Below, piece after piece: positions 546 to 49,175 of a stretch of DNA of 64,000 bases; within the stretch, counting starts at the first letter, position 1; each line of letters begins with the position of its first letter. The notes under the pieces are model-generated. The model ran no database searches. It was not told where the DNA came from and saw only the letters and a list, made by a program, of their open reading frames with translations. The stretch spans positions 3,162,001-3,226,000 of the forward strand of contig NZ_CP036346.1 of assembly GCF_014131695.1 (NCBI RefSeq), written 5' to 3'. A program made the translations under genes and the position numbers. The DNA comes from Thomasclavelia ramosa DSM 1402. Lineage in GTDB: Bacteria > Bacillota_I > Bacilli_A > Erysipelotrichales > Coprobacillaceae.

Positions 546-561
546 ATAAACAGCGTATGAA

Positions 562-730
562 CAATGATAGCTCACCATTATCTATTGATAATGACAGTCT
601 TATAGATCTTCACTATAAGCCCAGAGGATAAACGCATGCAATCATTTATCTCTTCGGCGAACGCTCCTCCCTTTTTACCTGGTTTGCATCTTATGGTAAA
701 AACTTCTTAACAATTCGCGCCTCTATCTAA
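562..730 (-). promoter_or_regulatory. lysine riboswitch (L box)
   Basis: Read on the minus strand, the region holds the L-box landmarks in order: AGATAGAGGCGCGAA near 730-713, GGGAGGAGCGTTCGCCGAAG near 673-652, CTCTGGGCT, GACTGTC, and a closing GGTGAGCTATC near 577-567. The aptamer is followed by an intrinsic terminator, so high lysine should switch off the downstream ACT/dapA unit. Confidence 0.9.
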
Positions 731-741
731 TATCTGTTTAC

Positions 742-12997: not shown

Positions 12998-14341
12998 TCA
13001 AATTAAATATGGCAAAAATACTGTTGCCAATCCTAAGAAAAAGAAAAATCCCAATACATCAGTTACAGTTGTGACGAAAACTCCGCTTGCTAGAGCTGGA
13101 TCAATATGAAATTTTTCCAAAATAACCGGAATAAAATAACCCGCAATATTTGCTAAAATCATATTTAAAAACATGGCTAATCCCGTTACTAAACCAAAAA
13201 CTGGATTTCCTTCAAATAACATTGAGCCTAACGCAACTATAATTCCTATTATCACACCACTGCAAAAACCAACAGCTACTTCTTTTAACATGATCCAGGT
13301 TGCATTCTCTTTACTCATTTCACCTAATGAAAGCCCTCGTACAACGATTGTTAAAGACTGAGTTCCTGCATTACCGCCCATTCCTGTAACTATTGGCATA
13401 ACAGTTGCAAGTGTAACTACTTGAGCAATCGTTCCTTCAAAAAAGCTAACCACGGAAGCCGCCATTACTGCCGTAAATAAATTAACAATCAACCAGGGAA
13501 TCCGACTCTTGACCGATTCTCCAACAGATGAATCTAGTCTTTCTTCAGAATTTACTCCCCCTAATAAATTAATATCTTCTGTACTTTCTTCTTGAATAAT
13601 ATCAATAATATCGTCAAACTCGATAACTCCTAATAAATGGTCCATTTCATCAACTACCGGCATCATGATAAATCCATATTTTTGAAATTTTTTTGCTACT
13701 TCTTCCTGATCTTCATTATATAATACAGTTTTTACATTTGTATTAGTAATATCCAGCATAGCTGTATCAAACGAGCTAGTAACAATATCTCGTAAAGATA
13801 CAACACCCTTTAAAATATTTTGTGGATCAACTACATAAAGATAATAAGTTGTATCTTCTTCGGTGTTTTCTTGAAGAAATTTTAAAGTTTTTTCAACGGT
13901 ATTGCGCGCACGAATACTAATATATTCCGTCGTCATGATCCCACCGGCCGTATCAGGATCAAACGTTAACAGTCGCTCAACATCTTCTTTATCTTCTTTG
14001 TCCATCTTATCTAAGATAGCCTGTTTTTCATCTTCTTCAAGTTCACCGATCAAATCAGTGATTTCATCATTAGACATTTCATCTAAGATTTCTTTTTGTT
14101 TAGCATCTGAAAATAATTTCAGTAAATCATACTGGTCATCTTCATCATCTTCCTCTTCAATAATGCTGGCAACAACATCATTAGGAAGATTGTCCATTAA
14201 TGCTTTAATACTATCCTCGTCTTCATGAAGAATATCTAAAATATCAGCCGGATGAATATTAGTTATTACTTTTTTTATTGTTTCTGGCGTTCCATTTAAA
14301 AGAATATCCTTCAGCTCATCGCTGGTAATTGTATCGATCAT
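12998..14341 (-). CDS. mgtE: MgtE-type magnesium transporter
   Basis: 447 residues with the MgtE order: an acidic helical N domain (1-128) full of Asp/Glu, paired CBS domains (about 130-255), a connecting helix, and five membrane helices (about 280-447) including the pore motif 'PIVTGMGGNAGTQS'. It imports Mg2+ and closes when internal Mg2+ binds the N and CBS domains. AAAGGAGG precedes the start. An acidic, proline-containing leader ORF lies 22 bases upstream; no M-box riboswitch was found. Confidence 0.92.
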   Translation of the reverse strand: MIDTITSDELKDILLNGTPETIKKVITNIHPADILDILHEDEDSIKALMDNLPNDVVASIIEEEDDEDDQYDLLKLFSDAKQKEILDEMSNDEITDLIGELEEDEKQAILDKMDKEDKEDVERLLTFDPDTAGGIMTTEYISIRARNTVEKTLKFLQENTEEDTTYYLYVVDPQNILKGVVSLRDIVTSSFDTAMLDITNTNVKTVLYNEDQEEVAKKFQKYGFIMMPVVDEMDHLLGVIEFDDIIDIIQEESTEDINLLGGVNSEERLDSSVGESVKSRIPWLIVNLFTAVMAASVVSFFEGTIAQVVTLATVMPIVTGMGGNAGTQSLTIVVRGLSLGEMSKENATWIMLKEVAVGFCSGVIIGIIVALGSMLFEGNPVFGLVTGLAMFLNMILANIAGYFIPVILEKFHIDPALASGVFVTTVTDVLGFFFFLGLATVFLPYLI

Positions 14342-14363
14342 AAGTTTCCTCCTTTATTGGGGA

Positions 14364-14435
14364 TTAGATACCTGATCTTAGTGGTAAATGATCCTCTAGA
14401 CTATCGCAACACTGGGGTACAGGCTCGACTTTCAT
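14364..14435 (-). CDS. 23-residue acidic/proline leader peptide before mgtE
   Basis: ATG at 14435 lies 6 bases after AAGGTGG and the TAA ends at 14364, 22 bases before the mgtE start. It begins MKVEPVPQCCDS, continues with a Leu-Glu-Asp-His run, and ends RSGI. Glu/Asp and Pro close together resemble the Mg2+-responsive MgtL-type leaders in which such residues destabilise ribosomes when Mg2+ is low. The ribosome site (GGTGGTAAA) can pair perfectly over 8 bp with TTTACCAC inside the same ORF (14381-14388 with 14438-14445). The ORF is well supported; the Mg2+ role is inferred. Confidence 0.6.
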   Translation of the reverse strand: MKVEPVPQCCDSLEDHLPLRSGI

Positions 14436-14533
14436 TTTTTACCACCTTCTTTCTCCAAGTCATTTTAACACAATTATGCGATTATAGGGGACTTTTTGAA
14501 TAAAATTAAATAGTAATTTAAGATTCTGAAATT

Positions 14534-47352: not shown

Positions 47353-49086
47353 TTAAAACATTCCAAAAAATTCTGCAATTGGTCCTAGAGCTAAAGCCGG
47401 AAAGAAACTTAGTGCTCCAACTAATAACACTACGAATACTAATAAAAAGACAAATAGTGGTGAACAAGTTGATAATGTACCCGCAGTAACAGCCACTTTT
47501 TTCTTTTGTACCATGCTGCCAGCAATAGCCAAAATACCTAAAATTGGAATAAATCTAACAAATAACATAACCAATCCAAGTGTTACGTTAATAAATGGTG
47601 TATTCGCTGCAAAACCAGCAAAAGCTGAACCATTATTACCACCTGCTGAAGAATAAGCATATAACAATTCTGAAAAACCGTGTGCACCGCTGTTATTTAA
47701 ACTATCCGCAACTTGAGGAACTAGGGAAGCAATCCCACTACCTACAAGAATAGCTACAGGTGTTGCTAAACAAACAACTACGGCCCATTTCATCTCATAA
47801 GGCTCAATCTTCTTACCTAAATATTCTGGGGTTCGTCCAACCATTAATCCAGCCATAAATACAGCTAAAATAACAAATCCTAACATTCCATATAAACCAC
47901 AGCCAACACCACCAAAAATTACTTCACCTAACTGCATTAATAACATTGTTACCATTCCGCCTAATGGTGTATAACTATCATGCATTGAATTGACTGAACC
48001 ATTTGATGCTGCTGTTGTAAAAGCGGCCCAAGTTGATGATCCAACAATTCCAAAACGCGATTCTTTACCTTCCATATTTCCGCCAGCTTGGTCATGGTTA
48101 CTAATATCGACAATTCCATTTTGTTCTAATTGTGGAGTTGCCATCTGCTCACTAACAGCAATACTTCCAAGTGCTGCTACCAGCATAATTCCCATTGCGA
48201 CAAAGATAGCAATACCTTGACGACTATCTTTAATTCCCTTGCCAAATGAAAAACAAAGAGCCGCAGGAATCAATAATATTGATACAACTTCTACTAAATT
48301 ACTTAATCCAGTTGGATTTTCCAATGGATGGGCTGAGTTAACGCCATAGAAACCACCACCATTAGTACCTAATTGCTTGATTGCAATCTGACTGGCCGCA
48401 GGTCCTAAAGGTACTGTCTGTTCTGTAATTTCAGTACCATCTTCTAAAACAATTGGTTCGGCCAATTTAACAGTTTGATACTCATCAATACTTTGAGTTA
48501 CACCTTGACTCACTAAAATAATTGATAAGACAACTGATAGCGGCATTAAGACATAGATTACAGATCTTGTTAAATCAACCCAAAAATTTCCTAAGCCTTT
48601 AGCCTTAATTCTTGTAAAGCCTCTAATCAATGCATATAAAACTGCTAGTCCTGTTCCTGCAGAAACAAAGTTTTGAACCGTTAAACCTAACGATTGTGTT
48701 AAATAACTTAATCCACTTTCACCACTATAAGCTTGCCAGTTAGTGTTAGTAACAAAACTTATTGCTGTATTTAACGCAAGGTCCCATGTTGTTCCTTCAA
48801 CCTTTGCAGGATTACCCGGCAAAACTCCTTGCAGCATTTGTAATAAAAAGACAAATACTAATCCAAATCCACTAAATATTAATACACTTACTAAATACTT
48901 CTTCCAAGACATCTCTTCATCTTTTTTTACATGTAAAACTCGATAAATGAAATTTTCACATGGTTCTAAAATTCTTGATAAAAAAACTTTTTTACCGTTC
49001 ATGACTTTATTAATGTAAAAACCTAACGGTACTGCTAAAACAACAAGAACGATTAGATATCCTAGATATTTGACAAAAATATCCAT
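47353..49086 (-). CDS. kdpA: KdpA, potassium-transporting ATPase channel subunit
   Basis: 577 residues, ten helices with the four selectivity-loop regions ('[15 protein letters not shown]', '[17 protein letters not shown]', '[13 protein letters not shown]' and others). It is the K+ entry channel. Its ATG shares bases with the kdpF stop (TAATG). Confidence 0.95.
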
Positions 49087-49175
49087 TACTGTTTATCCCC
49101 CTTAATTAATATCACTGTAAGGTAACCTAATATTGCAACACCGATTACCCCAATCACTCCTACGATTACATTCAT
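49086..49175 (-). CDS. kdpF: KdpF, small subunit of the Kdp pump
   Basis: 29 residues, one hydrophobic helix ('[19 protein letters not shown]', then a short charged tail ending GDKQ). AAAGGAGG lies 8 bases upstream. Position, length and the TAATG overlap with kdpA all fit KdpF, which stabilises the KdpABC complex. Confidence 0.88.

Follow-up and report, generated by a model that had tools for sequence, protein, structure and literature searches.

In the window, i.e., the whole stretch of 64,000 nucleotides from Thomasclavelia ramosa DSM 1402 which was analysed, a gene for the magnesium transporter MgtE is located on the minus strand (TIGR00400, 356.5 bits versus a cut-off of 232.75). It is preceded by a short open reading frame (ORF), with a gap of 22 nt between the stop codon of the ORF and the ATG of mgtE. 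A sequence-only reading of this DNA had described an ORF of 23 codons with a good ribosome site at this position and at this distance from mgtE, which was confirmed. The features of the locus are the following (window coordinates; P1, P2 and P3 designate pairings).

12998–14341, minus strand: mgtE, magnesium transporter, ATG at 14341 (TIGR00400)
14348–14353, minus strand: mgtE ribosome-binding site AGGAGG, from the sequence
14359–14363, minus strand: UCCCC, P3 partner of the mgtE ribosome site in the predicted fold
14364–14435, minus strand: leader ORF, 23 codons and stop, MKVEPVPQCCDSLEDHLPLRSGI, with ATG at 14435 and stop codon at 14366–14364; also picked by the fixed leader rule given below
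14380–14388, minus strand: 3' strand of P1, UUUACCACU, within leader codons 16–19; predicted fold and co-variation
14388–14396, minus strand: GAGGAUCAU, Glu-Asp-His codons, kept in the sequences of relatives, potential strand of P2
14415–14426, minus strand: codons 4–7, Glu-Pro-Val-Pro, from the sequence; putative Mg2+-sensitive (ribosome-destabilising) motif
14438–14446, minus strand: 5' strand of P1, GGUGGUAAA, leader ribosome site and spacer; predicted fold and co-variation with the 3' strand across lineages
14442–14448, minus strand: SD1, the leader ribosome-binding site AAGGUGG; -13.8 kcal/mol computed for its pairing with the 16S tail
14462–14467, minus strand: candidate -10 box TAAAAT, by inspection only; TATGATAAAAT at the corresponding position in relatives

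The leader ribosome site had also been proposed to pair with codons of its own ORF, and this holds: GGUGGUAAA and UUUACCACU form nine pairs, one G-U among them, which are present in the predicted fold, with a duplex energy of -11.7 kcal/mol (p = 0.036 versus dinucleotide shuffles). The stability of the whole leader fold is unremarkable (z = -0.72), P2 is a weak pairing in this copy, and the mgtE ribosome site is closed by P3 in the predicted fold, with a computed opening cost of 6.4 kcal/mol. The candidate TAAAAT box would imply, by inspection, a transcript start 20–30 nt ahead of the leader ATG. The absence of an M-box was borne out, as neither this family (RF00380) nor any other Rfam family was found at the leader at gathering threshold, and at a low threshold (E ≤ 10) chance matches were obtained, with no plausible family. 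A scan with promoter and terminator patterns was uninformative and gave no intrinsic terminator at the leader. Elsewhere in the window, a lysine riboswitch (RF00168) is located at 560–733 (minus strand, 92.6 bits). The pairing in the window is marginal on its own; it is the comparison of the sequences of related loci which raises the leader above chance, and the mgtE leader of the window is among the weaker copies of its class.

For this comparison, MgtE orthologues were gathered from the order, the loci (L numbers) being anchored on the MgtE protein. A DNA search with the leader of the window yielded one clear relative only (G020); it was nearly empty because the leaders diverge too fast. Leaders were identified by a fixed rule, which called for a strong ribosome site and an ORF of 15–48 codons, 60–175 nt upstream of the gene. 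With this rule, a leader was present in 47 of 110 regions upstream of mgtE in the order versus four of 330 shuffles (1.2%), and in the other orders of the class in eight of 47 regions versus none of 141 shuffles. The background in the window's genome was estimated with a closely similar, slightly stricter rule from 20 stretches of 20 kb and the window, where 100 nt or more of upstream room was available for 190 of 404 genes; besides mgtE, one of the 189 other genes was picked. This was a hydrophobic ORF of 29 residues at about 49086–49175 of the window (minus strand), in front of a gene with which it looks like a kdpF-kdpA pair.

Absence of the ORF from orthologues, which the sequence-only reading had named as counter-evidence, was observed in part: the six other Thomasclavelia mgtE genes examined (L022–L027) are without an intact ORF, with a remnant in L026, whereas more distant genera have a leader. 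The MgtE of T. saccharogumia (L051) is 85% identical to that of the window. Leaders of distant genera with a shared distal part read MIVDPLSGG..EDHLPP (L034), MIIDPIS..EDHLPP (L035) and MNSESVPVAV..DEDHLPP (L030). Wholly different peptides were also found, such as MPDPSQC (L066), MSPDPSS (L061), MDPVGN (L065), MDASVPE (L045), MDKTDSVP (L043), MDNPGG (L128) and MFYKDNDVPEPS (L130), and, in the other orders of the class, MDSGPLP (L170), MDSYPS (L177), MDEPSR (L223) and MEHPS (L248). Some mgtE leaders overlap mgtE. The genome of the window contains a second, divergent mgtE at G000:C1:1241907–1243190 (plus strand, L094), whose product is 31% identical to that of the window; upstream of it, neither a leader by the rule nor an M-box was found. 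By the same Rfam search, M-boxes were found in L077, L091, L220, L229 and L236. The M-box of L077 (oriented positions 32–194) and that of L220 (79–248) are followed by a terminator-like hairpin and then, immediately, by a leader ORF with an acidic/proline start, upstream of mgtE (from 249 and from 371, respectively); these loci likely carry two Mg2+ devices in tandem.

The lineages share no alignable leader sequence, and most of them match the leader ribosome site and spacer to their own distal codons, for example GUGAUUUUUC with GAAAAAUCAC (L066), GUGUAAAGA with UCUUUACAC (L077) and GAUGUGAUUGUAU with AUACAAUUACGU (L092). On inspection, the strand which matches in L220, UUGACUCACC, seems to be inside mgtE itself, still in the frame of the leader. 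P1 reached p < 0.05 versus shuffles in 21 of 34 leaders, from a list which, as for the permutation, switch and peptide tests below, was partly picked by eye; combined p-values overstate independence, since several of the leaders are related. Partners were also swapped among 26 lineages. The cognate combinations of SD1 with their own downstream sequences summed to -358.8 kcal/mol versus a mean of -259.9 (sd 11.3) for permuted partners, and the best of 20000 permutations, with -310.1 kcal/mol, fell short of the cognate value. With the spacer only, the energies were -242.4 kcal/mol (cognate) versus -159.2 kcal/mol (permuted, sd 9.9). As judged from these sequences, the ribosome site and non-coding spacer of the leader co-vary with its distal codons between lineages.

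The peptide of the window begins with an acidic and proline-containing part (E4-P5-V6-P7), which is followed by L13-E14-D15. The sequence-only reading had likened both parts to the composition of Mg2+-sensing leaders of enterobacteria. The acidic/proline composition is real, and the N-terminal Glu-Pro-Val-Pro is the likelier sensor; Leu-Glu-Asp (codons 13–15) looks like a constraint on the RNA, because GAG GAT is invariant in relatives and can pair with the stretch ahead of the mgtE ribosome site (P2). The EDHLPP peptide was considered as a conserved signal and dropped, as GAG GAT is invariant also at third positions in the group having these codons, and other lineages (L049, L066, L072) retain the pairing although their codons are quite different.

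A D/E..P motif was defined as Asp or Glu within three residues of Pro, in residues 2–10. It was present in 23 of 38 mgtE leaders, a list partly assembled by eye, versus ten of 231 gene starts of the window's genome, a background from one low-GC genome (Fisher p = 7e-16); in the rule-based set, 27 of 47 mgtE leaders had it. Starts of this kind, e.g., MPDPS, MSPDP, MDNPGG and DVPEP, occur across the mgtE leaders; about four in ten mgtE leaders are without the motif, and basic residues occur early in some leaders (MNKGKPKP).

Genes for CorA (PF01544) were taken as a control set, and one type of CorA was found to carry a like device, with leaders beginning MSPEPE.., MAPEPE.. or MSPEPDEDTK..; before the other CorA genes of the set, this device was absent. 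The D/E..P motif is present in six of six corA leaders versus the same ten of 231 gene starts. In the genome of the window, such a corA is located outside the window (G000:C1:2478892–2479923, plus strand), and its leader, MSPVPERLCAKKKKIK (L201, L266), ends 49 nt upstream of the gene in L201. A pattern search detected the start of the corA leader in all nine Thomasclavelia genomes searched and in all five of a second genus (g17), and the reversed pattern, used as control, had no match. Across the phylum, a looser pattern matched in one genome only; the MSPEPE-type leader is local to this order, or else the looser pattern is too strict. Near matches to this type of start (MSPEP, then different) were noted in genus g44, at G094:C9:693596 and G076:C122:9692.

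The ratio pN/pS of the corA leaders is 0.14 in codons 2–6 versus 0.77 in codons 7–12; judged by these substitutions, codons 2–6 are under purifying selection and codons 7–12 hardly so. P1 of the corA leaders covers the start codon, and two of its spacer pairs are changed on both sides, from T-A to C-G (L200) and from A-T to T-A (L201); co-variation was tabulated for P1 only, since alignment between the groups fails in the 3' part. These comparisons of sequences support the leader class, P1, the D/E..P motif and selection on MSPEPE.

The effect of a translating ribosome was computed by blocking a footprint of 28 nt at each codon of the leader and calculating the opening cost of the transporter's ribosome site, in a model which leaves out pseudoknots and kinetics. 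Opening of the corA site was predicted to cost 3.5–10.6 kcal/mol without a ribosome, on average 0.1–3.0 kcal/mol with a ribosome on codons 2–6, and 6.2–12.0 kcal/mol with a ribosome on codons 10–14. All ten corA leaders surpassed all of 30 shuffles, that of L201 being a strong predicted switch, and the switch point, between codons 7 and 9, directly follows MSPEPE. For the mgtE leaders, a ribosome on codons 2–4 cuts the opening cost of the mgtE site beyond that of shuffles (mean z 2.2, n = 34), and 23 of 34 have a switch at p < 0.1. The model supports a dependence on the position of the ribosome, which is clear for corA and for many of the mgtE leaders. The predicted switch of the window is weak, from 6.4 to 4.6 kcal/mol (p = 0.10), and its mgtE site is still closed in the minimum-energy structure with a ribosome at codon 3; the cost without a ribosome compares with 3.9 kcal/mol in shuffles (p = 0.13), and several relatives reach p = 0.03. 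A ribosome at the last leader codons brings the cost near zero in many leaders (window, 0.1 kcal/mol).

Our reading is that mgtE is under translational attenuation, with the ORF encoding the regulatory leader peptide, that the leader belongs to a class also present before corA, and that low Mg2+ is the trigger; we would put the probability of this reading at roughly 0.68. By default the system would be off, the leader ribosome site being shut by P1 with its own distal codons and the transporter site by the P3 hairpin. A ribosome initiating on the leader would open P1. With ample Mg2+, it would pass the acidic/proline start and proceed to the stop codon, and P1 and P3 would re-form behind it. 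At low Mg2+, the nascent Asp/Glu-Pro chain would slow or destabilise the ribosome in the first codons, so that the start region stays occupied and the distal codons are free, which would block P1. The freed codons could then form P2 with the stretch that would otherwise close the transporter site, and the transporter would be translated. We infer that Mg2+ is sensed via the nascent chain and that the output is translational, since the MgtL-like motif is placed such that a ribosome held or failing on it would free the transporter site; that Mg2+ is the signal, that destabilisation of the ribosome is the sensor, and that expression would rise at low Mg2+, belong to this part of the reading. The tie to Mg2+ is suggested by the position of the leaders before Mg2+ transporters of two unrelated families, and by the M-box upstream in L077 and L220. 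The translation-based Mg2+ switch which had been suggested earlier for this locus is strengthened, as an MgtL-like class, by the recurrence of leaders before mgtE, the selected MSPEPE leaders of corA and the computed ribosome-position switch.

In translational attenuators of the ermC type, a ribosome halted at a set position of the leader causes the mRNA to pair anew, by which the following ribosome site becomes free. The proposed working of the present leaders would be alike; the inducer of erm is an antibiotic, whereas here the proposed trigger is low Mg2+ and the leader's ribosome site would itself be one strand of P1. The M-box is comparable as a Mg2+ control of mgtE-type genes in Firmicutes such as Bacillus subtilis; in contrast, the window is without an M-box, and the present device, which stands in tandem with one in L077 and L220, is without a conserved aptamer. 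In E. coli, ribosomes drop off at the EPDP motif within MgtL when Mg2+ is low, and mgtA is turned on, and a toeprint was obtained with Pro3 in the P site (PMC11282234). Inefficient translation of mgtL or corL goes along with higher expression of mgtA or corA, respectively, through Rho (PMC11552253). MgtL of mgtA (E. coli, Salmonella) resembles the leaders described here as a short ORF with an acidic/proline start before a Mg2+ transporter gene (PMC11282234) and in having alternative leader structures tied to leader translation (PMC11552253); the likeness of the peptides is one of composition only, and they are too short to judge common descent. Unlike MgtL, whose output is Rho-dependent transcription termination, the leaders here appear, in the model, to act by closure of the transporter's ribosome site, and they also shut their own ribosome site with their own codons; their hosts are Bacilli and their genes mgtE and corA. 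CorL of Salmonella and E. coli is likewise a short ORF before corA whose poor translation accompanies higher corA expression, but it is poorer in proline and acidic residues and acts via Rho (PMC11552253), whereas the corA leaders here have MSPEPE at their start and seem to act by closing the ribosome site of corA.

The nearest cases in the literature are a riboswitch candidate before mgtE in Thioalkalivibrio and an M-box of Mycobacterium tuberculosis, which controls a small upstream ORF (PMC12810186). The former, the mgtE motif SRC-65-1, is also a candidate RNA before mgtE which includes the mgtE ribosome site, but it is proposed as a riboswitch, is confined to Thioalkalivibrio, and has no leader ORF described in the part of the source at hand (PMC11109978). 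In open-access full text, no report of such leaders in Gram-positives was found; subscription papers for the most part, and preprints, lie outside this scope, and priority cannot be asserted.

An attenuator of the same build might sense another signal, such as translation stress, the supply of EF-P or ABC-F, of prolyl- or other aminoacyl-tRNA, or an antibiotic. Any slow ribosome on codons 1–6 would work equally in the computed switch, and EF-P takes part in MgtL-type control in Salmonella, according to the available part of that source (PMC6460261). We consider this unlikely, as the leaders stand before genes for Mg2+ transporters from two unrelated families, two genomes have an M-box ahead of the leader, and the acidic residues beside proline would be needless for a plain proline sensor. 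Translational coupling, in which the mgtE site is opened by a ribosome that completes the leader, with P1 merely setting a low basal rate, would agree with the stop codons, which are often within or next to the closing hairpin, with the overlap of some leaders with mgtE, and with the near-zero opening cost computed for a ribosome at the last codons. The latter is also the main doubt on the direction of the response, since finished translation might raise expression by coupling. As an account of the whole device, coupling is quite improbable, since it leaves unexplained the conserved acidic/proline N-terminus and the corA switch just past MSPEPE, and the leader stop of L201 is 49 nt away from corA. 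That the RNA itself is a Mg2+ riboswitch, e.g., a pseudoknot of P1 and P2, whose strands are adjacent in several relatives, and the ORF is incidental, is very improbable, although both RNA sensing and mgtL translation have been argued for the mgtA leader of E. coli (PMC11552253), since there is no conserved aptamer, the sequences are wholly different between lineages, the leaders themselves match none of the riboswitch families of Rfam, and codon-level selection on MSPEPE, strong leader ribosome sites and D/E-P enrichment point to translation.

With the leader peptide of a translational Mg2+ attenuator as the preferred reading for the window, we would also lean towards a wider one: a widespread class of ribosome-read Mg2+ sensors in Bacilli, with acidic/proline leaders before mgtE and corA, independent of MgtL in origin, using their own ribosome site as a switch strand and sometimes placed behind an M-box. 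The ten corA leaders form a compact set suited to experiment: the state of the switch should depend on where along six codons the ribosome stands. If the reading is true, it would explain the control of many mgtE and corA genes which have no M-box. Sensing of Mg2+ by destabilisation of the ribosome through the nascent chain would then be a recurrent solution and not an enterobacterial peculiarity; in Gram-positive gut bacteria it would serve transporters of two unrelated families, and its output would be translational rather than through Rho.
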